From contig NZ_DS544873.1 in assembly GCF_000154725.1 (NCBI RefSeq), positions 4,313,085 through 4,377,084 on the forward strand: a stretch of DNA of 64,000 nt, written 5' to 3'. The notes beneath the pieces are model-generated. The model saw nothing but the letters and a program-made list of their open reading frames with translations. It made no database searches and had not been told where the DNA came from. Position 1 is the first letter of the stretch. Every line of letters begins with the position of its first letter. Of the stretch, positions 10,067 through 33,074 are shown one piece after another. Position numbers and translations under genes: made by a program. Origin of the DNA: Kordia algicida OT-1. GTDB lineage: Bacteria; Bacteroidota; Bacteroidia; Flavobacteriales; Flavobacteriaceae.

Positions 10067-10084
10067 TAAACAGATCGAAAGCTT

Positions 10085-12727: not shown

Positions 12728-12772
12728 AATAATATCAATTAATGTTGAAAACACTAAGCTAAAAAGCATATT

Positions 12773-12985: not shown

Positions 12986-13093
12986 CTACAAAGGGAAATT
13001 GGAAAAACATTTGTAAAAAATTGTGTAGTACACAAAATTTCATGTAAAATACTAAATAACAAAACTTTACAATGTTGTTTAATCATTTTTCAG

Positions 13094-14242: not shown

Positions 14243-14365
14243 ATAATTGGATTTTAGTTTTATTGCAATACGTTAATGACAGTTTGCTATATTAAATGTA
14301 TGTGTTTATATTATAATTTTGTAATTTTTCACTTTATTGAATGTAGTATTTAGTATATTGAATTT

Positions 14366-16186: not shown

Positions 16187-16304
16187 TTCATTATAACCTT
16201 AGCTAAAAGACTTGACTATACTTATTAATACCATATTTTTAGAATATTAGCTATTTCCAAATTGGTGTTTCTCATTTATTCGTTAAAGTTTTAGGATACT
16301 AACT

Positions 16305-17549: not shown

Positions 17550-17552
17550 AAT

Positions 17553-18071
17553 CTAATTGTATAAACTTCTTGTATTCTGAGCCTCATCAATTCTGTATTG
17601 AACATTTAAAGGTGGGATAATATAATTAACTAATTGATTTTCTATATCTGCAATGTCATTATCACTTATCTCACTTAAATCATAAAAATAGACATTGGTT
17701 GAGCCATACCAAGCATTAGCCATTAGTTGTCTATTTCTTTTAATATTCATATTACCAATTGCCTTAACATACTCATAGAAACGCTTAAAAAAAGTATTAT
17801 TATTAATTACTCTACCAATATAGATTAAATAATTTATTTCTGGAGAAAAAGGGAAATTAGGCTCAACAACAAACATATAAATACCTTTTTTATTTTTAAT
17901 GTTCCGTGGTAGGTTTTCTCTGATGTTCTCATCAAATGCAATCTTGACTGGATTTGGTAATACTATTGGTAAATTAAATCTGTTCCATAGATCTATATTC
18001 ATTGTTAAAGGAAGATCATAGATTTTTTCTGGATTAACACTATTTAATTCATCTAAAGAAAGAGCTGGCAT
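17553..18071 (-). CDS. GIY-YIG-like nuclease-fold protein within the dnd operon
   Basis: A 172-residue protein. KKGIYMFVVE (about residue 70) and LIYIGRV (about residue 91) match the GIY and YIG strands; FFKRFYEYV supplies the Arg-containing helix, and ENQLVNYIIPPLN near the C terminus has the Glu and Asn usual in these nucleases. The first 60 residues are an extra N-terminal segment. It lies 6 bp downstream of the DndE-ATPase gene and 3 bp upstream of dndB, so it belongs to the Dnd operon. With no DndFGH nearby, it is a candidate nuclease partner of the modification, but catalytic activity is not proven by sequence. Confidence 0.72.
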   Translation of the reverse strand: MPALSLDELNSVNPEKIYDLPLTMNIDLWNRFNLPIVLPNPVKIAFDENIRENLPRNIKNKKGIYMFVVEPNFPFSPEINYLIYIGRVINNNTFFKRFYEYVKAIGNMNIKRNRQLMANAWYGSTNVYFYDLSEISDNDIADIENQLVNYIIPPLNVQYRIDEAQNTRSLYN

Positions 18072-18077
18072 AAATAA

Positions 18078-19631
18078 TTATTTAGTATTAAAAATCTCTC
18101 CAAAATTAAACTCCTTAATATTGGTAATAGCTTGTCGAGGGTTAATTGTTTCCATAGAACGATTTATTTTGGTTCGTTGTTTTTCCCCAGCGCCAAGAAA
18201 TTTACTTATTGATTTCCAGTTGTTACCATCTTTGATTGACATTAAGAATGCTGACTGGCACATAGAAGAAAAATCAAAGGTTGGCTGATTAAATTCTTCG
18301 ATTCCTTGTGAAACTAACATCACAGCTACACCTTGCGATCGTATTTCTCTTAGTAATTTTTCAAGTATTTCTTGCGATTTCTTTTCTTTGAATACATTAT
18401 GCGCTTCGTCAATTAAGAGAACGTAGCGTAATCCGCTATAATCATCTTCAATAGGAGCTTTATCCATATTCATAAATGTGTTATACAGATAGTAAATTAC
18501 TAGGAATGTCGCTGTAAAACGTACTTCTTTACTCAAATCTCCCGAAAGACTTAAATAATAATTTGAATTGATGAAGTCTCCATATTTTTCGTTATCAAAT
18601 AACTCGATCTCAGTTAATCCGATCAATATTTGTGTGAGTGATGTGGGCTTATCTCCTGCAATTTCATAAACATTTTCTAAAACATCTTTCAATGTTGGGT
18701 ATGAACCGTCATTTCTATCTTCAAAAGCATTTATTGTAGCATCTTTAAGATTTTGTTTTTGCACATTCCCAAGATTAGCGTATTTGGTAATTATATCTAC
18801 AAATCTACCAATACCCACAATTTTATTTTTTTCATTGACATTATCTATAAATGATAAAGGATTTACAGGGAAAGAATTTTGTGGCGTATCAACCAATTGA
18901 GCATTAGTAGTTTTGAAAAAGCTTTTAAAGTCAGTACTTGATTTATCACTTTCATTTAAGCCTTTAAAATCAAGATACAAAAAATTAACTCTGCCATTAG
19001 TTCCTTGCACTATGCGTTCTAAAATTTTTCTTGAGAAATATGACTTTCCTGTTCCAGAATTTCCAGCAACCGCAATATGACAATTGCCGTAAATTGATGT
19101 GTTATTGGGAGTGAAATAAATTTCATCTCCATTTTCAGTTTCTCCAACTAAAATTTTGATAGGCTTGGTAAAACTCTCTTTTTCATTCAATGAAGAGTTA
19201 TTGTTTTTAGTAAATTCAAATGAATTTTCATGCTCATTCATTGAATCAATACCTATTTCAATATTGTCTAGCAAGAATTCAATACCAGAAAAGTTTTGGT
19301 TATCTTCAAAAAACTTATTTATCAATTCCAATCCTTGATCTATGTGCATTTTGAGATACTTTCTAATATTGGAGTCGTCCTTGTGTATTTGATATCTTTG
19401 ACAGATTAATGCAACATAATACTCTTTGAAGCTTCCAAATAAAGTATGATCTTTATATTCTTTACCACCAAAGGGTTGTAAATCTCTTTCTAAATCCAAA
19501 CTATAACCTTTGCTTAAAGAATAAGCTAAAGCTATCCTAGATATGTGATTTTCTGAACCAAGACCTATTTTTTGGGTTAAGGATTTTACTAATGGCTCAT
19601 TTTCTGGCGATGTACTTATATTAAATTGCAT
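18078..19631 (-). CDS. dndE: DndE fused to a HerA/FtsK-like ATPase
   Basis: About 517 residues from the ATG at 19631 (MQFNISTSPENEP). The longer reading to 19688 adds 19 residues inside dndD and is less likely. Residues 1 to about 115 read as DndE: a small helical domain with NHISRIALAYSLSKG and FGSFKEYYVALICQRY, normally about 110-130 residues on its own. The rest is an additional P-loop ATPase with Walker A AVAGNSGTGKSYF (189-197) and Walker B RYVLLIDEAHNVF (about 400), plus an arginine-containing LLREIRSQGVAVMLVSQ strand, as in HerA/FtsK DNA pumps. The start codon overlaps the dndD stop by 11 bp. Free DndE binds nicked DNA; coupling to a motor suggests DNA translocation (inference). Confidence 0.82.
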   Translation of the reverse strand: MQFNISTSPENEPLVKSLTQKIGLGSENHISRIALAYSLSKGYSLDLERDLQPFGGKEYKDHTLFGSFKEYYVALICQRYQIHKDDSNIRKYLKMHIDQGLELINKFFEDNQNFSGIEFLLDNIEIGIDSMNEHENSFEFTKNNNSSLNEKESFTKPIKILVGETENGDEIYFTPNNTSIYGNCHIAVAGNSGTGKSYFSRKILERIVQGTNGRVNFLYLDFKGLNESDKSSTDFKSFFKTTNAQLVDTPQNSFPVNPLSFIDNVNEKNKIVGIGRFVDIITKYANLGNVQKQNLKDATINAFEDRNDGSYPTLKDVLENVYEIAGDKPTSLTQILIGLTEIELFDNEKYGDFINSNYYLSLSGDLSKEVRFTATFLVIYYLYNTFMNMDKAPIEDDYSGLRYVLLIDEAHNVFKEKKSQEILEKLLREIRSQGVAVMLVSQGIEEFNQPTFDFSSMCQSAFLMSIKDGNNWKSISKFLGAGEKQRTKINRSMETINPRQAITNIKEFNFGEIFNTK

Positions 19632-21732
19632 CTTGATAATCTTTTTCAAAAACGTCAAACAATTCTTCTTTATTCTCAACTTGTTCAAAAGTAGATCGCT
19701 CGTTATCCGTATTTTTAATTAGGTAAGTCTTACTTATACTAGGCAATAAGATATTAAATTCATCTTCGGTCATTTCTTTTTTCAATAAAGGGAAGATAAT
19801 TACTTGATTTGACACATGTGGATAAAAATGTTTCACTATACTATTGGAATGATCTATATCAAACTTCTGCATCGGAGAATCTATAAATACAGGGAAATCT
19901 ATATTAGATTCATCCACAAGTCCTTTCAATAAAGCGGTTGCATACATTTGTTGCTCTCCTTTGGAAAGCGAATCCTTATTTATTTCTTTTCCTCTTCCGT
20001 CAATTAGATTGATTTCTATATCATCGCCCAAAATTTCTACTTGAACGTCACTTATAAAACTTCTTTTATGAAGTAGAATATCTAAACCATCTTTTATTCT
20101 TTTGGATAGACTGTGCTTTTTCTCAATTTTAAAGTCTCCAATGAATTTCTTTAGATATTTTATTGATTTCTCTACTTCTTGGCTAATTTGTTGTTTACCT
20201 TTTGATACTTTTAGTTTATCAGATATTCTTTTAATCTCTTTTTTTGATTTTATCTTGACATCATTATTTGTTTCAATTTCCTGTTCAAGTACACCAATAT
20301 TCCTAAGAATTGCATCATATTCATTTTCTAATTGATGTTTTCTCTCCCTATCAGCTTTTACAAGTGGATTTTCTGATTTTTCTTCGGCTAATTTAATTTG
20401 TTTATTAATGTCGTTTAACTCATTTTTTGATCTAATATAATCAGAGTTAATTCGATTGAACGTTTCTTTAAAAGACAATTTTATGTTATTAATAAATTGA
20501 TTTAACTCTGATTTTTCTGATTCAGAAAAGCTATGTATGATTTCAATAGAGGCTTCCGATTTTGGTTGTTTTTCTGATTCCCCTCCAATATGCTTCTGTA
20601 TTAGTTGTTTTAGATTATCAATATAATATTCTTGTACTTTATAATTTATTACAAGGTCGTCAGGATGGGGTATTTTTATGAGGTCATTAATTATGTTATC
20701 TGTTATTTTTTCAACTTTATCTTCATTAAATTTTTGACTAATTAAATCCCTTTCAATTATAATTTGTTCCAAAACTTCAGTTAATAAATTGCCAGCGATT
20801 GCAAAAGGAATTATTTCATAATGCTTCTTCAACTCAGAATTTAAAATACCTACTTGTTTTTCTAAATCTTCTTTTCTCGCTTTTAATTCATTTAGTTGTT
20901 CAACAGTAATAACACTACCTTGCTTTATAAGCTTTTCCTGTAATTTATTGATCTCATATTTCATTCCAGAAGCTTCTTCTTCTAGGTTCTTGGTTTCATC
21001 TTGGATTTCCTTTATTCTGTCATCAGCAATTTCCACATCAGTTTTTAGCCTTTTCAACTCGGCTTTTTCTTTCGCATTAGCAGTTTCAGATTTCAATTTT
21101 TCCAAATATTGCTCTAAATCTTCTTTCAGACTTTGATATTGCTTAATTCCTAAAACCTCAGAAAAAGCATTACTTAATTTTTGTCTTTGTTCAGCAGTAT
21201 GAATTTCGGCTAATGAAACTATTTTTTCTGCATCAAAAAAGAAAAACTTTGCGATTTCCATAGGCATAATGAAATCACGTATAAAGTGTTCTGCACCTAT
21301 ATTTTTCACTAATTCACTTTCATAGCCATCAATTAGTATATCTAAGTTTTCATCTTTATTTCCTTCTGTAAAATAAGTTCTCGTTATCTTTAGTTCATTA
21401 CAGGTAACATCAGGTATTGTAGTAATGCCTGAAAATGTAACAGATACTGAGAATTTAGTTTTTCCTTCAAACTCAGCTTGTTTATTTAAGCTACTCTTTA
21501 TGTATTGACGATAATTACCATTATTTTGGATTTCGTTTTTATAGATGTCATCTACATCACTCATTTGACGCCCGTATAAACACCATACTAAAGACATCAG
21601 AAATGTGGTTTTTCCAAAACCATTCTTACCGCTAACAATAATAATATTTTCATCATCTGTTACTGACAAATCAATAATATTATTCCCTTTATAGATTCTG
21701 AAATTATCTAGTTCAATGGATTTTATTATCAT
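19621..21732 (-). CDS. dndD: DndD, SMC-like ATPase of DNA phosphorothioation
   Basis: A 703-residue ABC-type ATPase of the Rad50/SMC kind. Walker A is VSGKNGFGKTTF (35-42), the central about 400 residues are coiled coil (long Glu/Lys/Leu-rich heptads around 210-300 and 430-560), the signature is SLSKGEQQMYATAL and Walker B is FPVFIDSPMQKFD. In Dnd systems DndD supplies ATPase activity for sulfur incorporation, probably by opening or nicking DNA. It abuts dndC (stop and start adjacent at 21733/21732) and overlaps the DndE-ATPase start by 11 bp, so expression is translationally coupled. Confidence 0.9.
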   Translation of the reverse strand: MIIKSIELDNFRIYKGNNIIDLSVTDDENIIIVSGKNGFGKTTFLMSLVWCLYGRQMSDVDDIYKNEIQNNGNYRQYIKSSLNKQAEFEGKTKFSVSVTFSGITTIPDVTCNELKITRTYFTEGNKDENLDILIDGYESELVKNIGAEHFIRDFIMPMEIAKFFFFDAEKIVSLAEIHTAEQRQKLSNAFSEVLGIKQYQSLKEDLEQYLEKLKSETANAKEKAELKRLKTDVEIADDRIKEIQDETKNLEEEASGMKYEINKLQEKLIKQGSVITVEQLNELKARKEDLEKQVGILNSELKKHYEIIPFAIAGNLLTEVLEQIIIERDLISQKFNEDKVEKITDNIINDLIKIPHPDDLVINYKVQEYYIDNLKQLIQKHIGGESEKQPKSEASIEIIHSFSESEKSELNQFINNIKLSFKETFNRINSDYIRSKNELNDINKQIKLAEEKSENPLVKADRERKHQLENEYDAILRNIGVLEQEIETNNDVKIKSKKEIKRISDKLKVSKGKQQISQEVEKSIKYLKKFIGDFKIEKKHSLSKRIKDGLDILLHKRSFISDVQVEILGDDIEINLIDGRGKEINKDSLSKGEQQMYATALLKGLVDESNIDFPVFIDSPMQKFDIDHSNSIVKHFYPHVSNQVIIFPLLKKEMTEDEFNILLPSISKTYLIKNTDNERSTFEQVENKEELFDVFEKDYQDAI

Positions 21733-23070
21733 TTAATTAGTAATAAATTGTTTATATCTATTTTCAATATCTTCAATTAAACCTCGTCTTTTCATCATAA
21801 TAGTTTTTGATTTTTCAAGCTTTAATAAATCTTGAATAAGACTAAAATGTTTTTTGTCATTCTCACAAGCTGACAATAAAATTTCTTCTTCTTTTCTTAT
21901 TAGTTCGTTGTGTTGTTTCATATCAAGGTCTTTATTAAAAACTTTATTGTATATGTCAGATACTTTAAAATCAAAATATAAATCTCTGTACCATGTAACT
22001 TGAATTGCTATTAGTTCTTGATTATTTATCAACTCTATATCAATTCCCATATCATTGATTTTCTTCTGAGCCTCAAAAACTTTTTCTAATATTTCTACTC
22101 TATGTTTTTGTATTACATAACCACCATTGGGTACTGCGGCTAGAGTTCCATTCCTTCTATAATCTGACCTGTTTTCAGGGTTATTTCGTTGTTCTTGAAT
22201 CCAGTCTCTAACATCTCTTAAAGGAACTAGCCATTCTTGACCATTTTCTATTTGAGCCGAAATTGATTTATCTTTCCTTACAACAGTACAAGTCCAGCAT
22301 CCAAATCTACTTTGCCCACAAGATTTATGTTCTTTATTAGATACCATCGTTGGACATTCATAATCATCAGCACTTGCGTCAGAATAAATGTTAAACAATT
22401 GATTTTTTTCTGCTCCCCAGGGAGATTCAAATGTGTTAATAATATACCAAATCTCCTCTAAATAAAGCTCCTTAATGGGCGAATAAACGAATACATTTTT
22501 TTGAAGCGGATGTTTAGTCAAACGCTTCCCTTTAATTTCATGTTTCTTAATAGACTTTGCTCTGGAGGCACTTTCACTTTTTCTTGTTCCTACTAAAACA
22601 ATTGCTTCTTTGTGTTCATTATCTTCACTGTTAACAATATCATCAATGAATCTTGAAGTTGGTTTTATTTTTAATCTTTCGGTACACCATCTAAAAGCGT
22701 TATTAGGAGCAGGATATCCTTTGCCTATCAAATTTACCCAGAAAGAGTCTTCCAATCTTGGTATAGTCTTTTTCACTTTAATAGGTAAATTATGTCTAAC
22801 AGCGGCAGTTTTAATTTTTTCTAATATTCCGTTAACATAATTTGTTATTATAGGGTTTTCAACTAAAGTATCATTGCATACAACCCAGACTTCTCTTTTT
22901 AGAAACTTTTCATCAATATCATTTTTAATTTTCAATAAACTCAACCAAACCAAAGTTAACATTACAGTTGAATCTTTACCACCACTAAAACCAATTATCC
23001 AAGGTCGATTATTGTCATCTATGGTATATTGGTCGATTATTTCTTCAATAATATAATTTGTCTTTTTCAT
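21733..23070 (-). CDS. dndC: DndC, PAPS-reductase-like sulfurtransferase
   Basis: A 445-residue PP-loop protein. The ATP-pyrophosphatase motif is IIGFSGGKDSTVML (SGGKDS 29-34). A cysteine set for an Fe-S cluster follows at about 238-262 (CPTM, then SCGQSRFGCWTCTV). DndC activates the sulfur acceptor in DNA phosphorothioation, receiving sulfur from a cysteine desulfurase, DndA or a housekeeping IscS. No desulfurase gene is in the window, so a chromosomal IscS/SufS is presumably used. It is the first gene of the minus-strand dnd operon, which therefore begins in the gap at 23071. Confidence 0.92.
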   Translation of the reverse strand: MKKTNYIIEEIIDQYTIDDNNRPWIIGFSGGKDSTVMLTLVWLSLLKIKNDIDEKFLKREVWVVCNDTLVENPIITNYVNGILEKIKTAAVRHNLPIKVKKTIPRLEDSFWVNLIGKGYPAPNNAFRWCTERLKIKPTSRFIDDIVNSEDNEHKEAIVLVGTRKSESASRAKSIKKHEIKGKRLTKHPLQKNVFVYSPIKELYLEEIWYIINTFESPWGAEKNQLFNIYSDASADDYECPTMVSNKEHKSCGQSRFGCWTCTVVRKDKSISAQIENGQEWLVPLRDVRDWIQEQRNNPENRSDYRRNGTLAAVPNGGYVIQKHRVEILEKVFEAQKKINDMGIDIELINNQELIAIQVTWYRDLYFDFKVSDIYNKVFNKDLDMKQHNELIRKEEEILLSACENDKKHFSLIQDLLKLEKSKTIMMKRRGLIEDIENRYKQFITN

Positions 23071-23468
23071 CTAAATTATAGGAAATTTCATATTGTCACG
23101 AAATTTACAACATTAAAGTTTATTGAAAAAAATACTTTAATACTAATTTGTAAAATAGCATAATTAACAAATTTAATATGTTATTGAACTTATCTTTTAC
23201 GGGAAACCGTAAGAGGATATCTGTTTAACAAAATATATTGATATGAGAATCAATTTGACTTACGTTTTAAACGTAGCTAGACTACGGTTTAATAATAAAA
23301 AAGTAATTATGTGTAAAATAAATTACATATTTTTAATAAACATATTTTATATTTGTGTCAGAAAATTAGTTTAATATTACGCTTATACAATATTTCTAAC
23401 GCTTATGAAGTTTATTTGTATACTTGTAATCTATTTCTTTTATTTGAGGTAATCCTTTATGTTTTTTT
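23071..23468. promoter_or_regulatory. 398-bp divergent control region with hairpins
   Basis: Gene-free gap between dndC (minus) and the lipoprotein gene (plus). It contains a GAAA-capped hairpin TTACGG-GAAA-CCGTAA (23197-23212), a palindrome TACGTTT-T-AAACGTA (23261-23275), and a plus-strand TATATTTG at 23348-23355 that fits the Bacteroidota -7 consensus TAnnTTTG, although no well-spaced TTTG lies upstream of it. I see no gene here. Confidence 0.45.
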
Positions 23469-24374
23469 ATGAAAATAGAACACTCTATATTACTTAGCAT
23501 GGTAGCATTCTTTTTAACATCATGTTTCACAGATTCCAAAGTTGATTATTTGGCTGATGGTTATTATTCAAATATTTACAAAGCTGATAGTCTTTACATT
23601 GAAAAAGAGTACGAGAAAAGTTATGAGATTTTCGAGAAGGTATTTTCTAAGTTTGATCCTATTGATATGGATGTTTACAATGAGGTCTCTACGTATGTCA
23701 AATTGAAGATAATTCTTGACAAGGATTTAAAATATAAAGAATACACAGATTTGATGTCTATATATGGCTATCCTGATATTTTTTTGAAAAAGGATTCTGT
23801 TCTAAAGATATATTATAAACGCGTTAAGGATAAATTAGACGAAGAAATCCCTGTTTTAAAAGAAGCATACACTTCATCTTTGAATATGGACTTACGGAAT
23901 AAGATTTTAAGAATGAAAGTCGAAGATCAACGATTTCGAGGAAATGGTGGAGGTAATTGGGACAAGCAAAATAAAATTGACTCAATCAACACACAAGAAC
24001 TCATAAATATTTTTGATACGTATGGTTTTCCATCAAAAAAAATGATAGGAAGTTCTCTGGTTGATGGTCAACACGCGAGTATAAGTACATTGTTGTTACA
24101 TACAGACGATTCTATAAGAGAGCATTATTTTATTCCTAAAATATTAAGTTATGTTAGAGAGGGGAAAGCCAACCCTCGTCTTGTAGGATTCATGTACGAT
24201 CAACTTCTACTGTATAATGGAGATGAGCAGTACTATGGCACTTACAACTCTTCCAAACCAATGACAGCCACACCAAAAGAAATTAATCAAAGGAGAGATT
24301 CAATCGGATTATCCAAGTTAGGATATGAAGATTGGAGAAACAACATATTGTATCCAGACTTTGACGAATACTAG
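23469..24374 (+). CDS. Hypothetical lipoprotein upstream of the RiPP operon
   Basis: A 301-residue protein with a lipoprotein signal peptide: hydrophobic residues 7-16 and the lipobox FLTSC (Cys19). The mature part has an early helical stretch (YKADSLYIEKEYEKSYEIFEKVFSKF) that looks like a TPR-type helical pair, then no recognised domain. A C-terminal block with HASISTLLLHTDDSIREHYFIPK is unusual but unassigned. It is 79 bp upstream of the first precursor peptide on the same strand and could be an accessory or immunity factor for the peptide product, or simply a neighbour. Family unknown to me. Confidence 0.65.
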   Translation: MKIEHSILLSMVAFFLTSCFTDSKVDYLADGYYSNIYKADSLYIEKEYEKSYEIFEKVFSKFDPIDMDVYNEVSTYVKLKIILDKDLKYKEYTDLMSIYGYPDIFLKKDSVLKIYYKRVKDKLDEEIPVLKEAYTSSLNMDLRNKILRMKVEDQRFRGNGGGNWDKQNKIDSINTQELINIFDTYGFPSKKMIGSSLVDGQHASISTLLLHTDDSIREHYFIPKILSYVREGKANPRLVGFMYDQLLLYNGDEQYYGTYNSSKPMTATPKEINQRRDSIGLSKLGYEDWRNNILYPDFDEY

Positions 24375-24453
24375 TTGAGTTCAAAAAAGGTGCAGTACAC
24401 TCGCTATACATTTAATTATGTATGGTTATCTATTAATTTAAAATTTTCAAAAT

Positions 24454-24678
24454 ATGAAAAAACTTCAAAAGCTTAAGAATAAGCTTAGTACGCAAAACCT
24501 TGTTACTGAAAATCAAATGTATTACATAACAGGGATGCAAAATCGTTACAAGTCTTATAGTGTCTGTATTGACTCTACCGATGGTGAGAACGGCTGTGAT
24601 AATCAGCATACAAAAACTAAGGACTATGAGGACGGAACAACAACGACTACAGTTACAATTGTTGAGTTTGAGTGCTAA
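24454..24678 (+). CDS. GRASP-with-SPASM RiPP precursor peptide 1
   Basis: A 74-residue peptide. The leader MKKLQKLKNKLS with a YYITGM block (residues 23-28) is shared with the next gene, while the C-terminal core is rich in Thr, Asp, Glu and Lys (TKTKDYEDGTTTTTVT) and has three Cys. Paired hydroxyl or amine side chains with acidic residues are what ATP-grasp ligases link in graspetides. It is the first of two precursors immediately upstream of the ATP-grasp and SPASM genes. Crosslink positions cannot be told from sequence. Confidence 0.85.
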   Translation: MKKLQKLKNKLSTQNLVTENQMYYITGMQNRYKSYSVCIDSTDGENGCDNQHTKTKDYEDGTTTTTVTIVEFEC

Positions 24679-24709
24679 TTAATGTCTAATTATTAAAAAA
24701 ATATATAAC

Positions 24710-24937
24710 ATGAAAAAACTTCAAAAACTAAGCAAAAAGCTTAGCGAAACGAATGTATTAAATACAGGAGAAGCATTCTACATTACTGGTGGAGAAGAAA
24801 GAACAAGCTGGTGTTGGTCTAAAACCGATACTTGCCATGATGGTATTTCAGATGTTCATTTTACTCGTACCAAAGATGGTGTAGTCATTACTGATACTGT
24901 TACTGACTGCGATGAAACTTGTGGTCAAGGTCAATAA
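24710..24937 (+). CDS. GRASP-with-SPASM RiPP precursor peptide 2
   Basis: A 75-residue paralogue of the preceding peptide, 31 bp downstream. The leader is MKKLQKLSKKLSETN followed by FYITGGEE; the core differs but keeps a TRTKD-x-TDTVT stretch equivalent to TKTKD-x-TTTVT in copy 1. It has four Cys (WCW, DTCHD, DCDETCG) and many acidic residues near the C terminus. The conserved leader and divergent core are the standard RiPP pattern and suggest that both are substrates of the same enzymes. Confidence 0.85.
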   Translation: MKKLQKLSKKLSETNVLNTGEAFYITGGEERTSWCWSKTDTCHDGISDVHFTRTKDGVVITDTVTDCDETCGQGQ

Positions 24938-24958
24938 ATAAATCTACGGGAGATAAAT

Positions 24959-25903
24959 ATGCTACTAATTATCACATCAGAACAAGATCATTCTTCTCTT
25001 TTAGTAATTGATTGGTTAAATCATATAGGTCTTCCGTGGATTCGTATAAATGAGAAAGATGCGATAGAATTGTCATTTATTGAAAATGATATAAAATTTC
25101 AATTGGAATCTTTCTCATTTTTACTTTCTGAAATCAAAGTAGTTTGGTATCGACGAGGTTTTTTAAACTTTAAATTTTTTATCTCAAAACTTTTTGATGT
25201 TGATGAGTTTAGAAGAATTGAACTAAAAAAACTAAAAGAATACATTTATTACAAGTTATCTCAATTACCAAATATTAACCGATTTGAAAATGCTGATGTT
25301 AACAAACTAATTGTAACTGAAAAAGCAAGTGAAGTAGGATTGTTAACTCCAAAGGAATACTTAGTAAGTAATAAAGAAATTCTTCAAAAAATACTAACAA
25401 GTACAAATACAGAGCATGCAACAAAATCAATTTCAGGTTATGGTACAATTTCTTCCGATACTGTTAACTATAAGATTCTAACCAAAAAGCTTGATGATGC
25501 TAATAGCACACCAGAAAACTTCTTTCCTAGTTTAGTTCAGGAATATATCGAAAAAAGATATGAATTACGTATTTTCTATATGCACGGAAAATTCTGGTCA
25601 ATGGCAATATTTTCACAGAGTGATGATACTACGGAAGTCGACTTTAGAAACTACAATATAGTTAAACCCAATAGAAATATTCCTTTTAATGTTCCGCATC
25701 ACATCAAACAAAAAATAATAAAACTTATGGAAAAACTTGATTTGAATTGTGGCTCAATAGATATGATTGTAACACCACAGCTTGAGTTTGTTTTTCTTGA
25801 AGTAAATCCCGTTGGACAGTTTGGAATGGTTTCATACCCTTGCAATTATTATTTACATCGAGAAGTTGCTCAACATTTACATACCCTATCACATGGAAGC
25901 TAA
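24959..25903 (+). CDS. gwsG: ATP-grasp peptide maturase (GRASP-with-SPASM system)
   Basis: A 314-residue ATP-grasp ligase similar in length and layout to graspetide (microviridin-type) ligases. It has VVWYRRGF near residue 62, a central Lys-containing KSISGYGTIS strand, LVQEYIEKRYELRIFYMHGKFWSMAIFSQ, and the C-terminal metal/ATP block EFVFLEVNPVGQFGMV with the Glu and Asn that bind Mg-ATP. Family members join side chains of the precursor as ester or amide links. It is 21 bp downstream of precursor 2 and overlaps the next small gene by 11 bp, so the set is one operon. Confidence 0.9.
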   Translation: MLLIITSEQDHSSLLVIDWLNHIGLPWIRINEKDAIELSFIENDIKFQLESFSFLLSEIKVVWYRRGFLNFKFFISKLFDVDEFRRIELKKLKEYIYYKLSQLPNINRFENADVNKLIVTEKASEVGLLTPKEYLVSNKEILQKILTSTNTEHATKSISGYGTISSDTVNYKILTKKLDDANSTPENFFPSLVQEYIEKRYELRIFYMHGKFWSMAIFSQSDDTTEVDFRNYNIVKPNRNIPFNVPHHIKQKIIKLMEKLDLNCGSIDMIVTPQLEFVFLEVNPVGQFGMVSYPCNYYLHREVAQHLHTLSHGS

Positions 25904-26102
25904 AAAAACAAAAGAAGAAATAGTTGAACATCTTGAAAGAACAAAAGGTATTCTACCTTTAATTCTACATGATGTGAATGTCACTGTAATTGAGAAAAAT
26001 AACAAAGTAACGGGAAAACTCATTACTGTACCTAGTTACAAAACGTCTGGAATTTCAATTTCAAATTATTTGAAACACGTAACACGATTTCCACATGAAT
26101 AA
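25893..26102 (+). CDS. Small protein between the ATP-grasp and SPASM genes
   Basis: A 69-residue protein from the ATG at 25893 (MEAKKTKEEIVEHLERTKG); a longer reading from 25812 would lie inside gwsG and is rejected. The start overlaps the gwsG stop by 11 bp and the stop overlaps the gwsS start by 8 bp, which implies translational coupling and a real gene. An N-terminal helix is followed by ILPLILHDVNVTVIEKNNKVTGKLITVPSY, predicted beta strands. No family recognised. It may be a leader-binding or chaperone-like accessory of the maturation enzymes (inference). Confidence 0.7.
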   Translation: MEAKKTKEEIVEHLERTKGILPLILHDVNVTVIEKNNKVTGKLITVPSYKTSGISISNYLKHVTRFPHE

Positions 26103-27171
26103 AAAGTATTTCAACCTTTTTGCTAACTGTTTTATAGTCAAAGGATACAATCGTAGTTTGATTTTTGACTCACAAAGAATGAAGACTGTTTTTGTTCCTA
26201 ATGATATGTATGATATTGTTATTAAGGCAAAAAGTATAAGTATTCAACAAATTTATGAGGAATATGGAATTGATAATAAAGAAATCATTGATGAATATTT
26301 TGATTCATTAATTGAAAGTGAATTAGGTTTTTATATGTCAGAAAAAGAACGAGATTTTTTTCCAGAGATTAACACGGCATATCATTCTCCTTTTCAGATT
26401 ACTAATAGTGTACTTGAAGAAATGAGAGACATGAAGCTATATAAAAAGGTAATTTCACAACTAGAAGCATTAGATTGTCAATACGTAGAACTTGTATTCT
26501 ATAATAATACATCCAATGAGTTTTTGACAAATATTCTATCTCTTTTCAAATTGTCATCAATAAAATTTATAGGCTTGATTATTCCTTATGACAGCACAAA
26601 AACTCCTGAATTTATCAAAAAAATATGTTCACAAAACTTACGACTGAATAAAATATTAGTACATAATGTTCAAGTACAGGAAAAGCCTAAAAATATAACT
26701 TTAGGTCTTACAGAAATAATATATGTAAATAAAGAGTTTACCAACTTTTCATATTGTGGAAATATTAGTAAAAAATTCTTTTCTCCAAGTTTAGAGCATT
26801 ATGTGGAATCTCAGAATCACAATACATGTCTGAATCAGAAAATTTCCATTGACTCTCAAGGAAATATTAAAAACTGTCCTGCAATACCCAATAATTTTGG
26901 AAACATCAAAGACGTAACACTAACAGAAGCCATCAATACACAAGGTTATAAGCAATTATGGAGCATATCCAAAGATCATATTGAAGTCTGTAAAGATTGT
27001 GAGTTTAGGCATATATGTACAGATTGTCGTGCATTTACGGAAAATCCCAAAGATAACTACTCAAAACCCTTAAAATGTGGGTACAATCCATACACAAATG
27101 AATGGTCGGAATGGTCAACGAATCCTTTAAAACAAAAGACTATAGAATATTACAATATAGAGACGAGTTAG
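26095..27171 (+). CDS. gwsS: SPASM-domain peptide maturase (GRASP-with-SPASM system)
   Basis: A 358-residue protein. The C-terminal third is a SPASM domain with its cysteine pattern: CLNQKISIDSQGNIKNCPAI, a GNIKDVTL turn, then CKDCEFRHICTDCRAFTEN and a last Cys in LKCGYNP. The N-terminal 240 residues have the size of a radical SAM barrel, but I find no CxxxCxxC; the place where it would be expected reads AYHSPFQITNS. The protein therefore seems to keep auxiliary cluster ligands while lacking the canonical SAM-binding cluster. It follows the 69-residue gene with 8 bp overlap and ends the operon. Confidence 0.88.
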   Translation: MNKKYFNLFANCFIVKGYNRSLIFDSQRMKTVFVPNDMYDIVIKAKSISIQQIYEEYGIDNKEIIDEYFDSLIESELGFYMSEKERDFFPEINTAYHSPFQITNSVLEEMRDMKLYKKVISQLEALDCQYVELVFYNNTSNEFLTNILSLFKLSSIKFIGLIIPYDSTKTPEFIKKICSQNLRLNKILVHNVQVQEKPKNITLGLTEIIYVNKEFTNFSYCGNISKKFFSPSLEHYVESQNHNTCLNQKISIDSQGNIKNCPAIPNNFGNIKDVTLTEAINTQGYKQLWSISKDHIEVCKDCEFRHICTDCRAFTENPKDNYSKPLKCGYNPYTNEWSEWSTNPLKQKTIEYYNIETS

Positions 27172-27387
27172 GATTTTCTTACACTAATTATTATAATTAA
27201 AATCCTCAAACCGTAAAAATCAAAAGGTGAAACCGTAATTTCATTAATAGAGTCTTAAAGTTAATTATATAGCACTAACTTATTATTATATTATAAAACA
27301 TTTACTTCCTTAATCAGAATGAACTTTCTGACAGGTTCTTTTTTAGATACATTTGATTTGAAGTATTAATCTTTAAATCAAAATATT

Positions 27388-27558
27388 ATGAGAAAAGTAG
27401 CATTAGTTTGTTTGTTTTTGTTAGGGATGAATTTAACAAGTTGTGAACCAGAGAGTTTAGCAGATCAAGAATATGAGCAAATCCAAGCAACCGATAAAAA
27501 CAACAACGGAACCATCGGCAATAGTAGCGGACAAGATCCAGACGAAGATTACAATTAG
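27388..27558 (+). CDS. Small lipoprotein (56 residues)
   Basis: ATG at 27388, stop at 27556-27558. It has a clear lipoprotein signal, MRKVALVCLFLLGMNLTSC (Cys19), and a short acidic and polar mature region (EPESLADQEYEQIQATDKNNN, later GQDPDEDYN) with no fold evident. Small lipoproteins of this kind are frequent in Flavobacteriaceae. Its last 86 bp overlap, in another frame, the start of the membrane protein gene at 27473. Function unknown. Confidence 0.7.
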   Translation: MRKVALVCLFLLGMNLTSCEPESLADQEYEQIQATDKNNNGTIGNSSGQDPDEDYN

Positions 27559-28321
27559 AAAATATTTCTTAATCATTGCCGTAGCTATTGGTGTGGTTGC
27601 GGCAATGTCACAACTATTTTTTGATGTAAATAGTGAAGCTGTCATCGAAAAACGAAAAGAGCAGCAATCAGCACGAAAAGACCGAGATTCCAAAAGAGTT
27701 TTGGGAATGAACATATTAAGCGATATTCAGGCTATGAACGTATTGCCAGATTCACTTAATAAAAAAGTAGCTAAATTAGTTTCAGAACATCAAAAAATAG
27801 AAAAGAAATCAGAAGTTTTATATGCTGAACTACTAAACTTAAAAGATGCCCAAAGAGTTAGAAATTTTCCTAATTATAATTCTTTTGCAGATGCTATAGG
27901 GAATCCAGTTTTAATACTAATCACAGGAATATTATTTATTATTTTCTACATTCTTAGAAATAGTATTGATTGGAAAAAGCTTTCAAAAGCTTTTATCTAT
28001 TTAGGTTTAATGTATTTATTTGTTGCTTCTGTATATCTAATATGGGCGTTTTCAAATTCATTAGAGATTCACAAAGTGTATTATATAGTTGGCTTAATCT
28101 TTGCGAGTATTTTTGCAACTTTTGGATTAAATAAGCTTACGCGTTATCTATTCAATGTAGATTTTCTCGAAAAAGAAAAATATAAGAAAATCATTCGATT
28201 ATTATTTAGACAACTATTATTCACAATTCCCAAGAAAGGTTATGTGAAAGAAGATAAAATGATTGAATTTACAGATTCAAATAATGAAGTCATTAATAAA
28301 GTAGCCAAAGAAATAGATTGA
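27473..28321 (+). CDS. Hypothetical inner-membrane protein
   Basis: A 282-residue protein with about four hydrophobic segments: one near residues 29-47 (YFLIIAVAIGVVAAM), then VLILITGILFIIFYIL, a third with FIYLGLMYLFVASVYLIW, and YYIVGLIFASIFATFGL. Between spans 1 and 2 is a charged helical linker (EAVIEKRKEQQSARKDRDSKR). The start at 27473 overlaps the upstream lipoprotein gene by 86 bp; a later start would lose part of the first membrane segment. The next gene begins 1 bp after its stop. No family recognised. Confidence 0.65.
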   Translation: MSKSKQPIKTTTEPSAIVADKIQTKITIRKYFLIIAVAIGVVAAMSQLFFDVNSEAVIEKRKEQQSARKDRDSKRVLGMNILSDIQAMNVLPDSLNKKVAKLVSEHQKIEKKSEVLYAELLNLKDAQRVRNFPNYNSFADAIGNPVLILITGILFIIFYILRNSIDWKKLSKAFIYLGLMYLFVASVYLIWAFSNSLEIHKVYYIVGLIFASIFATFGLNKLTRYLFNVDFLEKEKYKKIIRLLFRQLLFTIPKKGYVKEDKMIEFTDSNNEVINKVAKEID

Positions 28322-28322
28322 T

Positions 28323-28544
28323 ATGAGTGATGAAATACATAAAAATTTAGACAAGCTTCTTAATGACGAATTAATTGATAAAGACGTTAAAAAAGCACAT
28401 CAAGATATTTCTGCTAAAGTAGAAAAGCAAAAAAGAAAGCTATCTCAAGAAATTAATAAAAGGAAAAGTTCCAACAACGATGAGTTTAGCAAATTACCAA
28501 AAGGTTTAATTATTCAACTGGGTAATTTTGAAATACAAACATGA
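28323..28544 (+). CDS. Small charged hypothetical protein
   Basis: A 73-residue protein that begins 1 bp after the membrane protein gene, so the two are probably co-translated. It is almost entirely helical and charged (DKLLNDELIDKDVKKAHQ, then KQKRKLSQEINKRKSS), likely a coiled coil, and ends in the hydrophobic GLIIQLGNFEIQT. No family recognised. It may be a cytoplasmic partner of the upstream membrane protein. Confidence 0.55.
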   Translation: MSDEIHKNLDKLLNDELIDKDVKKAHQDISAKVEKQKRKLSQEINKRKSSNNDEFSKLPKGLIIQLGNFEIQT

Positions 28545-28551
28545 CCTAAAG

Positions 28552-29055
28552 TTAAGTATTTTTATTAGCCTTTACGATTACACCTAAATCTTTCAACTCT
28601 TGTAAGCGCTTCTCAATTCGTTTCTCTACTAAGTCATCCACAAACAGTCTAAAATATTCAGAATTATTCAAGTAAAAATCCTTATTCCTGACAATATTAT
28701 CAATAATTAGTAAGCGAATCGTATCTGATTTTTCTAAATACATTTCCTGATTATCAATAAAATGTGTGGTTAGTTCATCAAGTTCAAATCGCACTCCTTG
28801 CTTTTCAATATAATAATCAGCTTCATCTTTCAAATACATATCTCCTGTACCATCATTAATCCATTGTCGCGAAACATTATATTCAGCACAAAGAAAATCC
28901 ACCAAAATATCAATAGTAGCACGTCTAGGTTTTGTAGTCTCACCAATCATTATTTTTCTGGCAGCTACACTTGAAATATGATGATCAGTCCCTTTTTCAA
29001 TTTTGTAGGACGTGATTTTTTGTTCTTTAATTATCTGAAGGATGCGATCAATCAT
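28552..29055 (-). CDS. XRE/C1-like HTH transcriptional regulator
   Basis: A 167-residue protein. Residues 1 to about 65 look like a phage-repressor-type HTH: RILQIIKEQKITSYKIEKGT, then ISSVAARKIMIGETTKPRRATIDILVDFL and the NVSRQWINDGTGDMY block that commonly ends such domains in Bacteroidota. The rest is helical with acidic patches (FELDELTTHFIDNQEMYLEK) and a C-terminal coiled coil (VEKRIEKRLQELKDLG). It is convergent with the two small genes to its left, and its promoter faces the gene-poor integrase side. It is a good candidate for the regulator of the shared 39-bp element, but that is only inference. Confidence 0.75.
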   Translation of the reverse strand: MIDRILQIIKEQKITSYKIEKGTDHHISSVAARKIMIGETTKPRRATIDILVDFLCAEYNVSRQWINDGTGDMYLKDEADYYIEKQGVRFELDELTTHFIDNQEMYLEKSDTIRLLIIDNIVRNKDFYLNNSEYFRLFVDDLVEKRIEKRLQELKDLGVIVKANKNT

Positions 29056-29263
29056 ATTTTTATAAAACTTATTTTATATTTATAATAAACTTTTTAGTTA
29101 TTTTAATTAACTTTTACTATATTAGCTAAGCCTTTAAACCAAATATATTAAAAGCTACGTAAACCCTGTTATACATTAGGTTTATAACTAAGTTTATTTA
29201 TCAAAATTCAACACAAATTGATAGAAATAGCCATTGATTTTATTTGAATTTTAAAGCAATATA

Positions 29264-29425
29264 ATGACTGAATTTTTAATACTAATCACTGCGTCAATAA
29301 ACGTTTTTTTGACGGTAATAGTTTTGATTTTCTTGTATAAATTTTTCAAAGTTTTTAGAAAACTTCGTGTACTGATAAATGATGAATATGATTTTAGTAA
29401 AAAAGGAAAAGACTTTTTTTCATAA
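29264..29425 (+). CDS. Small single-pass membrane protein
   Basis: A 53-residue reading frame from ATG 29264 to TAA 29425. It is hydrophobic over residues 4-24 (FLILITASINVFLTVIVLIF) and then basic and polar (KVFRKLRVLINDEYDFSKK), the look of a small membrane protein with a cytoplasmic tail. It is divergent from the XRE-like regulator by about 210 bp of AT-rich DNA. No homologue recognised; being short, it could be spurious. Confidence 0.4.
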   Translation: MTEFLILITASINVFLTVIVLIFLYKFFKVFRKLRVLINDEYDFSKKGKDFFS

Positions 29426-29458
29426 TAATTTTTTGGTTGATCTCTGATATGGAGGAAG

Positions 29459-29626
29459 AAATAACACGTCAAGAAAGTATCATTTTTTCAATTAAGCTAC
29501 TACTAGAAGCACTTTCCCTTTTTAAAGTGCTAATATTCAAGACGTGTTATTTGTGAAGTTTTCATTGACTTCGCTGTTTAGGGCAAGACGATTGATAGAT
29601 TCTATGCAGACAATCATCGTCTTGCT
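29459..29626. repeat. Nested inverted repeats (three stem-loops)
   Basis: An outer 12-bp perfect inverted repeat (AAATAACACGTC at 29459-29470 with GACGTGTTATTT at 29541-29552) encloses a second perfect stem (AGCACTTT at 29508-29515 with AAAGTGCT at 29524-29531). A third, separate 10-bp stem follows (GCAAGACGAT at 29583-29592 with ATCGTCTTGC at 29616-29625). A 35-residue reading frame (29449-29556) overlaps the first two but looks incidental. The block lies between two small membrane ORFs and may be a structured RNA or a degenerate non-autonomous element. Confidence 0.6.
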
Positions 29627-29650
29627 ACTTTAACAAAAGTATGATAAATA

Positions 29651-29764
29651 ATGATGAGTAAACAAAAATTAGAGCGCTTAAAATGGTTTATAGTTGGTTT
29701 TATATCAGCAATGATTGTAGAAGTTCTCTTTTTTATCGCTGTGTATTTTTTCTATTTAAAATAA
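29651..29764 (+). CDS. Very small single-pass membrane protein
   Basis: A 37-residue reading frame from ATG 29651 (or 29654) to TAA 29764. A basic N terminus (SKQKLERLKW) is followed by a continuous hydrophobic stretch (FIVGFISAMIVEVLFFIAVY), ending in FYLK. The shape fits a small membrane protein such as a type I toxin or a regulatory peptide, and a terminator-like hairpin lies 58 bp downstream. No family recognised; at this length it may be chance. Confidence 0.4.
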   Translation: MMSKQKLERLKWFIVGFISAMIVEVLFFIAVYFFYLK

Positions 29765-29821
29765 ACAGAATAATTTCCTAGAAACCCTAAATTATCGTAA
29801 AACTAGAATTATCTGTATGCT

Positions 29822-29853
29822 AAAAGCTTCAACTGTAATTGTTGGAGCTTTTT
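29822..29853 (+). terminator. Intrinsic terminator
   Basis: AAAAGCTTCAAC pairs with GTTGGAGCTTTT (one G-U pair) around a 7-nt loop, followed by T residues. It lies downstream of the 37-residue membrane ORF. Confidence 0.7.
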
Positions 29854-29945
29854 CAATTAAGTATTATTTAATAATTGTTGGGTAGTAAATTAATTTTTTT
29901 ATAAATCATTAAATAATAAGCGGAATTTTTGAAATCAATTATCAA

Positions 29946-30607
29946 CCTATCGCTAAGCGGTAAGTTAATTTTTTCTCATCATGTTCTATGAAAAAAGCAA
30001 ATATAAATCTATATTTTTTCTAGCTGATTGCTCAGTGATTAGCAAATATTTTCAGCTTACTGCTAAGCAATGAGTTGAGCAAAAGAAAATATTATCCTTA
30101 AACGAATCACTTAATGATTAGTTGTTTTTTTATATCAGATTTTTAGCTTACTGCTAAATGATAAATTTGATTTTCCAACTAATCGCTAAGTGATGAGCAG
30201 ATTTTTAATGATGGATTTTCAAATTTTCATGGAGTAAATAATTTGTTTCTTTTTCACTAGTCGCTAAACGATAAGTTCGATTTTTCAACTAATCGCTAAG
30301 TGATGAGCAGATTTTTAATGATGGATTTTCAAATTTTCAAGAAGTAAATAATTTGTTTCTTTTTCGCTAGTCGCTAAACGATAAGTTCGATTTTCCAACT
30401 AATCGCTAAGTGATGAGCAGATTATTAGAAGCAGATTTTCAAATTTTCATGAAGCAAATAATTTATTTCTTTTTCACTAGTTGCTAAACGATAAGTTCAA
30501 TTTTCCAGCTAATCGCTAAGTCATGAGCGAATTTTTAGTTGTAGATTTTCAAATTCCATGAAGCAAACAATTTTTTTCTTTTCCACAAATTGCTAAACGA
30601 TCAATTT
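29946..30607. repeat. Array of about 13 imperfect-dyad elements in non-coding DNA
   Basis: About thirteen copies of a roughly 20-bp element, consensus CTnnTCGCTAAnnGATnAG, occur between 29946 and 30607. Many are partly self-complementary (for example CTAATCGCTAAGTGATGAG). In the first part the copies are diverged and irregular (about 29946, 30023, 30054, 30103, 30146). From about 30178 two forms alternate: a CTAATCGCTAAGTGATGAG form (30178, 30288, 30398, 30508) and a CTAGTCGCTAAACGATAAG form (30256, 30366, 30476, 30585), inside a conserved unit of about 110 bp repeated four times. There is no ORF. It is not a CRISPR array, because the spacing sequence is itself repeated. Confidence 0.85.
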
Positions 30608-30716
30608 ATTTTTAGAAACCAATTGAGAAATCTTAATTTGAAATTCTGTAATAGTTTTTTGGTTTATAATAATTGACAAATAGCGATTTAAACTTTAAAG
30701 GAAATAATAGAATGGG

Positions 30717-30972
30717 ATGTTGGCATTCCAGATGCCTGTCATAGATGGTTGGAAATTTTTAGATGAGTTTGTCAAAATTCCAAACAAGAAAAAAATAAAG
30801 CTATTTATAGTCTCCTGATCCATTTATTCCGAATATCCATATAGCCAAAGAACATGAACAGGTGAGCAGTTATATTGTAAAACCTATTTCAAGAGAATTA
30901 CCTCGCTTAATCATTGTGAAAATTGCAAGCGAAAATTTAAAAAAACTTCACAAAAATTTTTCATCAAAATAA
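30717..30972 (+). pseudogene. Response-regulator receiver-domain remnant, frameshifted
   Basis: The frame from 30717 reads MLAFQMPVIDGWKFLDEFVKI and stops at the TGA at 30816; the adjacent frame from 30817 continues as KEHEQVSSYIVKPISRELPRL and ends at the TAA at 30972. Together they match the second half of a CheY-like receiver: the MPVxDGWxFL block after the phospho-acceptor Asp, an IVSS strand, and the conserved Lys-Pro of YIVKP. The first half, including the acceptor Asp, is missing, so this is a decayed fragment rather than a working gene. Confidence 0.75.
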
Positions 30973-31171
30973 TTAATTGCCTGTAATTTAGATTCTTGCA
31001 AAAAACAGGTGGAAAAAGTTGGAATCGTAAAATACTTGTTAAATCAACTTTTTTTTCATAATTAATTGAATAAAAGCCTATAAATACACTTCTTCTTATA
31101 AAGGAAAAATCTTTCTTTTCATTGATTCCTACAATTTATTCTTACTTTTTGTGTGTATTCCACAATTTTTT

Positions 31172-31444
31172 ACAAATGTTTATTCAAAAGTATTTCAAAA
31201 CTTTACTACTGTGATACTTTAGAGAGTATCTCCAATCATCGAATTGAAATAGTAACTAATTAAGAAAGGCTTTTTTATTAACCAAAGCGATACCGATTTG
31301 TTCTCAATTGTCGCACTTTAAAAATATAAATATTTAAAAATTAGAACATTATGATTTTTAATTGTCCGAGTGACAAAAGCTGACAAATGATATTTGACCA
31401 CTATTTCAAAACTTTGTTTTCGTGATGTTTTAGAGAGCATCAGC
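31172..31444. repeat. 62-bp imperfect direct repeat upstream of the integrase
   Basis: 31172-31233 and 31383-31444 align without gaps at 45 of 62 positions, with identical cores TATTTCAAAACTTT and TTTAGAGAG. The copies are 211 bp apart and both precede the integrase start at 31556. They may be arm-type integrase sites or operators. The rest of the gap 30973-31555 holds the shared 39-bp element and no gene. Confidence 0.7.
31359..31397 (+). promoter_or_regulatory. 39-bp element shared with the methyltransferase promoter region (copy 2)
   Basis: Matches the minus strand of 12773-12811 at 37 of 39 positions, including the TTGTC-CGAGT-GACAA dyad and the second TGACAAA. It lies 158 bp upstream of the integrase start and overlaps the beginning of the second 62-bp repeat unit (31383). 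Orientation relative to the downstream gene is the same as in copy 1. Confidence 0.6.
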
Positions 31445-31555
31445 GATGAGTGATTAGCACAGTAATTCAATATTTAGATAATACATGAATTACTTCCTAT
31501 TCCCAAAAAGAATTTAATAACGCAATTAAAATTTAAAAACAAAGGAGAAAACTAT

Positions 31556-32905
31556 ATGGCAAAACGAAAGCACATGCCTAACAACAAACACAAAGGACTC
31601 TTTATTTACTGTCATGTCTGTAAAAAGCATTTCTCATGGACTAGAAAAACAGTTTTACGAAACACCAAAAAAGTAAAGGAAGAACCTACTTGTGGAGAAT
31701 CGGGCAAAAATTATTCTACCTGCAAACATTTTGAAAAGCATCGTTACAAATCTCGATTGCACGTTCCAGGAAGTGAAGGACGTAAAGCGAGTAAAACACA
31801 CGATGCTACTAATTATGTCGATGCAGTAATTCAAGCAATTGATTTTGAAAAAGAATTCAAAGCCGAATTACAGGGATGGGGGCAACCGATTGAAATCAGA
31901 AATAGGCAATATTTATTTGATATACAATTACGGTACATTGATTTTTTAGATAATATAGATGTTCCTGAACATCAAAAAAACACGCTGTCTGAACAGCGTA
32001 AAAATGAAATTGTAAACTGTTTAAAAATATTTAATCAGGCATTAGCAAAATACAATATCAATAAAAAGCTATTTATTATTAATCGTCTTAACGATGCACA
32101 CGTAGGTTTATTCCATGATTACTTATTAGTTGATAAGAATTACAAGGGAAACACCTACAACGGTAAAATGAGCGTTTTAAAAACGTTTGTAAGCTGGGCA
32201 ATTGATCGGTATAATATAAACATGAAAAACCCTTTTGAAAAGGTTAGAATGATTCCTGTCATGGTCAAACGTGATACGATTACAAAAGAAGAATTTAAAA
32301 ACCTATTAAAAATCATAAAACCCGAAAATGGAATAGAAATTCAAGGAAAGTACAAACGAAACAGATACAAGCTGTATTTAAAAGATGCTTTAGAACTAGC
32401 GTTGCATACAGGCGGAAGACGTGAAGAAGTAGTAGGACTCAAATGGAATATGATTCGCGAAAAGAATGGCGAACCAGTCTACATAGAAGTTCCCAATCTC
32501 AAAGTAAAGAGAAAAAAAGGAGAATACTTCAATCAGAACGTTCCACCAAAGATAGTTCCTGTAACAAAAAGTCTAAAGAATATCTTATATCGCTTAGGAT
32601 ATGATATGAACAAAGGAAAGGATAGATATCTATTAAATCCAGACAAAAGAACGGCATCGTCCACCAAATCAATGAATGACGCTTTATCATTAGGATTTTC
32701 ACATTTCTACAAGCAATTAAACACAGGTAGAGAATTACAGTTTAAATGCCTTAGAAAAACATACTTGACCTATCTATCATCTACTTTGAAAGGAGATGCA
32801 AAACGTCTATCTTCGCACGCAACAGATACAGTCTTAAAAAAGCACTATATTGACGAGCGAATCGTAGACAAAGCTATCAAAGAATTAGATATATTTGAAG
32901 ATTAA
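31556..32905 (+). CDS. Tyrosine recombinase / integrase of the island
   Basis: A 449-residue protein. The N terminus has a zinc-finger-like Cys pattern (YCHVCKKHF, then CGESGKNYSTCKHFEKH). A SAM-like core-binding region follows (about 110-230). The catalytic domain shows HTGGRREEVVGLKW (Arg box I, about residue 286), LQFKCLRKTYLTYL (box II, with Lys-Cys in place of the usual His-x), SSHATDTVLKKHYID (box III His about 420 and nucleophile Tyr about 430). It ends 10 bp before the right direct repeat, the usual place for an integrase gene beside its att site. The CLRKT variant of box II is also known in other Bacteroidota integrases. Confidence 0.9.
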   Translation: MAKRKHMPNNKHKGLFIYCHVCKKHFSWTRKTVLRNTKKVKEEPTCGESGKNYSTCKHFEKHRYKSRLHVPGSEGRKASKTHDATNYVDAVIQAIDFEKEFKAELQGWGQPIEIRNRQYLFDIQLRYIDFLDNIDVPEHQKNTLSEQRKNEIVNCLKIFNQALAKYNINKKLFIINRLNDAHVGLFHDYLLVDKNYKGNTYNGKMSVLKTFVSWAIDRYNINMKNPFEKVRMIPVMVKRDTITKEEFKNLLKIIKPENGIEIQGKYKRNRYKLYLKDALELALHTGGRREEVVGLKWNMIREKNGEPVYIEVPNLKVKRKKGEYFNQNVPPKIVPVTKSLKNILYRLGYDMNKGKDRYLLNPDKRTASSTKSMNDALSLGFSHFYKQLNTGRELQFKCLRKTYLTYLSSTLKGDAKRLSSHATDTVLKKHYIDERIVDKAIKELDIFED

Positions 32906-32914
32906 AAAACTAGA

Positions 32915-32938
32915 AAACGGTACTCTTTGGCGGTACTC
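32915..32938. other. Putative attR of the island
   Basis: AAACGGTACTCTTT at 32915-32928 repeats 9712-9725 exactly. CGGTACTC occurs at 32918-32925 and again at 32931-32938, the same 13-bp register as at the left end. A crossover here would leave a chromosomal site with three CGGTACTC copies spaced by 13 bp. Confidence 0.65.
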
Positions 32939-33046
32939 TCATAAAAATCAAGAAAATACGATTTTAAGAAAATAAGTGTAAGTCCCTATAAATAGGGAGT
33001 TTGAAAATAAATTTACCGAAAATCAATAAACTAACTAGCAGTTAGC

Positions 33047-33074
33047 AACCAGCAACCAGCAACCAGCAACCAAC
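33047..33074. repeat. 7-bp tandem repeat (AACCAGC), short array
   Basis: Three AACCAGC units followed by the AACCAAC variant, directly abutting the stop codon of the methyltransferase gene at 33074. It is the same repeat as at 9566-9621 across the island. Confidence 0.9.

Follow-up and report, generated by a model that had tools for sequence, protein, structure and literature searches.

A tandem array of 13 palindromic elements, here called dyads, lies within an integrative island of Kordia algicida OT-1, and clusters of the same dyad are restricted to the genus Kordia. The array is real and is linked to recombinase genes. The window analysed here is a 64,000-nt stretch of this genome (G000), which consists of one contig of 5.03 Mb, and the other Kordia genomes are labelled G003, G004, G007 and G010. 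We tentatively suggest, with a rough probability of 40%, that the array binds a dimeric factor acting in trans and controlling the recombinase side of the island, which is the likeliest mechanism.

Structure of the array and its island

The consensus of the dyad is a 25-bp palindrome, cAaCTtATCgCTaAGcGATaAGtTg, obtained from a symmetrised model of 46 distinct dyads, and the site is best given as CARCTNATYR-YTWAR-YGATNAGYTG. The motif is symmetric, including its centre YTWAR, and the conserved positions are identical across the two halves. An independent motif model was built from 36 dyads of other loci, excluding the window array and its near-identical copy in G010. This model retrieves the same 13 dyads with scores of 14.6–33.2 bits, with a sole extra match above 10 bits in the window (position 29902, 11.3 bits), while dinucleotide shuffles of the array region (n = 200) contain 0.03 matches on average and one at most. 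The array of about 13 elements reported in a preliminary description of this DNA is thus recovered by a model built without it. The same description had presented the array as non-coding, palindromic, adjacent to an integrase and unlike a CRISPR, all of which is supported by the present analysis. The repeats are degenerate and palindromic, their spacing is irregular (32/44/78), the spacers are themselves repeated, and no cas family was recognised among the scanned island ORFs; a CRISPR array was rejected on these grounds.

The array is built from a basic unit of two dyads with a spacing of 32 bp. Successive dyads in the window are spaced by 78, 32, 47, 44 and 32 bp, then by alternating 78 and 32 bp, and finally by 77 bp. 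Over 22 clusters, 26 of the 87 spacings between neighbours are exactly 32 bp, and the other groups fall at 41–47 and 76–78 bp. The distinct spacings show no helical period, and the 32-bp pairs fit three turns.

The 110-bp higher-order repeat noted earlier is also genuine (spacing 78+32, copies 85–89% alike over 196 bp, TRF period 110 with 4.1 copies). Its units begin at 30147, 30257, 30367 and 30477; the final one measures 109 bp. They are shared with the G010 copy only, and two G004 arrays carry similar tandem units of their own. Besides this near-identical G010 copy, the head of the array has counterparts, some of them partial, at seven loci, namely 709k, 4266k, 1073k and 426k in the same genome and one each in G003, G004 and G010 (contig 13). 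The five-dyad layout of the head (32-46/47-43/44-32) is present in the window and at 426k, and partially at 1073k and in G003. From this comparison of sequences, the right-hand units appear to be a local tandem expansion and the left dyads an older, shared head, in line with the earlier view that the left copies are older and more varied.

Table 1. Features of the array and of the island that contains it, in window coordinates.
Feature	Position	Strand	Basis
Integrative island, ~23.5 kb, heptanucleotide tracts at its ends	9566..33073	.	tracts, GGTACTC pairs, GC, G010 comparison
Left heptanucleotide tract (AACCAGC)n, proposed attL	9566..9622	+	
GGTACTC pair 13 bp apart, possible integrase arm sites, left end	9703..9722	+	
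Cargo: Dnd-type DNA modification genes (DndB, DndE-HerA-like, DndD/PbeC-like, DndC)	16305..23070	-	
Small protein, HTH-like by eye, without strong family match; 0.9 kb left of the array	28552..29055	-	
Array of 13 dyads	29946..30604	+	repeat analyses and motif models
Dyad starts	29946, 30024, 30056, 30103, 30147, 30179, 30257, 30289, 30367, 30399, 30477, 30509, 30586		
Conserved head: CTCATCRTRTTCTATGA block and five dyads spaced 32-47-44-32	about 29972..30197	+	counterparts elsewhere
Four tandem ~110-bp units (dyad, 13 bp, dyad, 59 bp) and terminal dyad	30147..30604	+	
Second repeat TTTCAAAACTTTnnnnnnGTGATnnTTTAgAGAGnATC, copy 1, upstream of integrase	31193..31230	+	0 expected
Second repeat TTTCAAAACTTTnnnnnnGTGATnnTTTAgAGAGnATC, copy 2, upstream of integrase	31404..31441	+	
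Tyrosine recombinase Tyr-1 (island integrase), 449 aa	31556..32905	+	phrog_1 integrase, E 1.2e-24
GGTACTC pair 13 bp apart, possible integrase arm sites, right end	32919..32938	+	
Right heptanucleotide tract (AACCAGC)n, proposed attR	33044..33073	+	

The integrase gene starts 0.95 kb to the right (downstream) of the array. A GGTACTC pair of the right-end type follows the integrase gene in all seven close islands examined. GC content is low across about 13 to 32 kb of the window. G010 contains the same integrase (99%), the array and part of the cargo, but has different flanks, and its homology to the window ends at the tract that closes at 33073. No empty target site for the island was found in the genomes searched. 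The second repeat (TTTCAAAACTTT...GTGATnnTTTAgAGAGnATC) also adjoins the other close Tyr-1 genes of G000, at 424k and 1074k. The island cargo further includes a NACHT protein. An ATP-grasp-like gene (by eye) is paired with a SPASM gene at 24959–27171; the pair resembles grasp-with-spasm peptide clusters and is found near dyads in four loci.

Islands of the Tyr-1 family mostly end in heptanucleotide tandem tracts directly after the integrase, of the AACCAGC, AACAAAC and AACTCAC types. The loci compared, besides the window island, were L055, L056, L060, L063, L064, L067, L030 and L083. Judged from these ends, the Tyr-1 enzyme behaves as if it targeted heptamer microsatellites. One Tyr-1 relative (L057) adjoins tRNA-His. 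A literature search at overview level, drawing on parts of the sources, returned nothing on such Kordia repeats or on integrases targeting heptanucleotide tracts.

Distribution of the dyad and its recombinase neighbours

Within the genus, the dyad is matched in 9 of 11 genomes at E ≤ 1e-5; a threshold of E ≤ 0.01 raises this to 10 of 11. A family search of 199 genomes under stricter filters gave matches in two Kordia genomes only, and no dyad clusters were found in the 197 genomes from other genera of the family. Two stretches of the genome_contigs collection (84,980 species according to its description), both from Kordia, carry the strict pair pattern, and none of the viral contigs does. Dyad arrays had no match in the phage and plasmid collections.

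Dyad clusters adjoin recombinases of three families, two of tyrosine recombinases (Tyr-1 and Tyr-2) and one of large serine recombinases. In the three single-contig genomes, a recombinase is found within about 5 kb of 12 of the 16 clusters (5/7 in G000, 6/8 in G004 and 1/1 in G003); 20,000 draws of random placement gave 0.54 such clusters on average and never more than 5. The link is partly circular, since two of the families were noticed through their dyad neighbours. The null included all PF00589 matches of the three genomes and fragments, and, for the serine type, only homologues of the one found. The consensus search of other genomes proposed in the preliminary description thus places the clusters in Kordia and beside recombinases, far above random placement, which is not the picture of a generic genome-wide repeat without a link to islands. 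Recombinases are the most recurrent genes within 6.5 kb of 23 clusters (Tyr-2 in 8, Tyr-1 in 7 and serine in 3), and besides them no gene recurs beside most arrays. Four clusters (32k and 709k in G000, 4668k and 4709k in G004) are without such a recombinase within 5 kb, and three of them adjoin a gene related to the MTase-like one at 10085.

Among Tyr-2 genes with 74–100% identity, all eight are followed by at least one dyad 18–585 bp past the gene. Seven Tyr-1 genes with at least 88% identity have upstream arrays; the remaining ones at this level are a G010 fragment without an array within its 1.5 kb and a G007 fragment at a contig edge. For the serine family (at least 75% identity), dyads occur at three of four genes, the fourth (3922k) having been viewed with 1.5 kb flanks only. 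Arrays are found at none of seven Tyr-1 homologues of 45–58% identity (one single weak match) and at 1 of 11 Tyr-2 homologues of about 45–52%. Dyads are mostly absent from the more distant members of each recombinase family, so the array is not needed for recombination.

The position of the dyads relative to the island end was also compared. In the Tyr-1 islands, the integrase stop is followed by the heptamer end, with the array on the opposite side of the gene (7/7). In the serine type, the end of the shared block is close to the recombinase stop or slightly beyond it, with the dyads opposite (3/3). In the Tyr-2 clade (93–100%), the block ends ~100 bp ahead of the gene, which is itself followed by the dyads. 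These homology breaks suggest a common order of island end, recombinase, dyads and remainder.

Several features of individual elements were recorded. Tyr-2 elements carry a winged-helix protein of 400–450 aa (weak match) near period-11/12 repeats (L118 8743–10083, L123 3624–4916 and L029 11985–13178), which together look like a rep/iteron unit. A single dyad is present 3–6 kb beyond the dyad pair in L118, L122 and L123. The near-identical Tyr-2 element copies in G004 (L122 and L123) adjoin rRNA operons, with the 16S gene at L123 8228–9751. The cargo of the G004 2876k array includes genes that read, by eye, like Cas2, Cas1 and Cas9 of type II (L063 10577–13983).

Possible functions of the array

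The array may represent cis-acting sites for a dimeric DNA-binding protein supplied in trans. One dimer would sit on each 25-bp palindrome, and a 32-bp pair, spanning three helical turns, would seat two dimers on one face. The arrayed copies would raise occupancy and, on the side of the recombinase gene that faces the island interior, lead to a nucleoprotein complex, which could control expression of the recombinase region or excision of the island. Protein binding is suggested by the form of the sites, and control of the island is its presumed effect. The binder is probably not encoded in each island, because no non-recombinase gene recurs beside most arrays. Three candidates for the binder or a constant partner, an HTH gene at 28552, a TM gene at 27473 and a small ORF at 9830, were rejected, each being beside only some arrays. 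Several observations speak against the binding of a controlling factor: the distances from dyads to gene starts (0.5–2 kb) are long for an operator, 4 of the 16 clusters are without a recombinase within 5 kb, most distant homologues of the recombinases have no dyads, and in close comparisons the dyads are no better conserved than the spacers. A more specific proposal, which we regard as rather unlikely, is that islands of three unrelated recombinases share, by convergence or by exchange, one cis-acting code in the form of the dyads, and that a single Kordia factor, from the host or a helper element, reads it and times expression or exit. Such a shared docking signal would resemble satellites that answer to the regulator of their helper. 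Bacteroidetes LexA-like operators are also palindromic (CTAA-N5-TTAG, and GGA-N5-TCC in Flavobacteriaceae), and their half-site CTAA/TTAG resembles CTNA/TNAG of the dyad; compared by eye with these motifs (PMC8565304), the spacer is 5 there vs CTNA-N11-TNAG in the dyad, and a LexA operator was rejected.

The main rival, ranked second and somewhat doubtful, is that the dyads are a repeat family without island function, REP/MITE-like or a relic, which grows by slippage or unequal exchange and travels with Kordia islands. Single dyad units have been cleanly gained or lost between near relatives (32k vs 1073k, G004 2876k vs 4765k), and the dyads bear no sign of purifying selection, as would fit such a repeat. 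Changes in dyads and spacers amount to 5/225 vs 3/478 between the window and G010 (p 0.12), to 9/57 vs 16/301 between 32k and 1073k, where the dyads change faster (p 0.009), and to 11/132 vs 58/411 between G004 2876k and 4765k (p 0.10). Five close pairs were compared in all, with no consistent constraint and one pair reversed. Pieces of relic dyads without a recombinase also exist, for example beside tmRNA in G010, and a duplicated block with 97% identity (32k and 1073k) ends right after the dyads. The tmRNA gene is a classic integration site; the G010 relic (L061 5249–5346) lies ~75 bp from its 3' end. The duplicated block of G000 contains pilus-like genes and is at least 4.4 kb long (L027 407–4755 and L030 1337–5718), both copies ending just past dyads. 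A hitch-hiking repeat is harder to reconcile with clusters that adjoin recombinases and are not scattered among host genes, with a five-dyad layout that is kept across islands with differing cargo, and with the absence of any recurrent neighbouring transposase belonging to the array. REP/BIME repeats are likewise paired, intergenic palindromes; unlike them, the dyads form few clusters per genome, are tied to recombinases and lack a recurrent transposase of their own. The many-copy scatter of REP/BIME repeats between host genes is not seen: G000 has seven clusters, five of them within 5 kb of a recombinase. If the dyads are only passengers of this kind, they still serve well as a genus-specific marker by which recombinase-linked islands, and relics of these, can be found.

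The other readings are less probable. The dyads could be transcription terminators or insulators between recombinase and cargo, which we consider unlikely. Dyad pairs on the Tyr-2 side fold strongly (L140, -31.6 kcal/mol, z -7.8, with flanking A and T runs; L129, z -6.2; L126, z -4.2), and the scanned window stretch contains three terminator-like sites vs 0.7 expected. The window dyads, however, are mostly weak hairpins (-3.5 kcal/mol and z 0 for a single dyad, z -1.9 for a pair), thirteen copies are more than a terminator needs, and at Tyr-2 loci L125 and L126 another terminator-like hairpin comes first (by eye). The stems also show no pair covariation, for which reason a double-stranded palindrome is favoured over an RNA hairpin. 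Given the strong folding of the pairs at the Tyr-2 loci, the dyads may act as terminators there. A structured RNA was rejected for the window array: stem cells are paired in 81.6% vs 81.2% after shuffling, and Rfam gave no match at the array.

Use of the dyads as res-, attC- or att-like sites of one recombinase, with the array as a docking site for cargo, is very unlikely. The inverted half-sites around a short centre, the pairing of dyads, the tight recombinase link and the differing cargo beyond the array would all suit it, and resolvase res and integron attC sites are likewise clustered dyads by a recombinase gene. The Kordia islands, however, end elsewhere, at heptamer tracts, whereas a recombinase core site (res, att or attC) would lie at the element boundaries; the dyads are also many more in number, and a site of one enzyme is hard to reconcile with unrelated neighbours of both the serine and tyrosine type. 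The GGTACTC pairs offer alternative candidate integrase sites.

The preliminary description had likened the array to an iteron-like protein-binding array or a partition/control locus; a role in replication or partition found no support. That the array is an iteron-type replication origin or the partition centromere of an excised circle is the most improbable of the readings considered. It shares with plasmid iteron and centromere arrays several short sites in AT-rich, non-coding DNA and growth by tandem units, and the Tyr-2 elements have their rep/iteron-like winged-helix protein near period-11/12 repeats (by eye). Those repeats are distinct from the dyads, however, and Pfam recognised no replication initiator and no ParA/ParB-like protein among the scanned island ORFs. 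DnaA-box-like sites are at chance level in the window. Of the spacings, those of the 32-bp pairs fit helical phasing and the others show no period. The array further differs from plasmid iterons and centromeres in lying in an island without a recognised rep or par gene, in its palindromic sites and in being shared across three recombinase types.

To our knowledge, little is known about the control of islands in Flavobacteriaceae. If the dyads form a control array bound by a dimeric factor, several classes of mobile elements in a marine genus would be governed by one trans factor, whose target sites are listed here. The array would then offer a direct route to a switch common to defence and peptide-cluster islands of Flavobacteriaceae.
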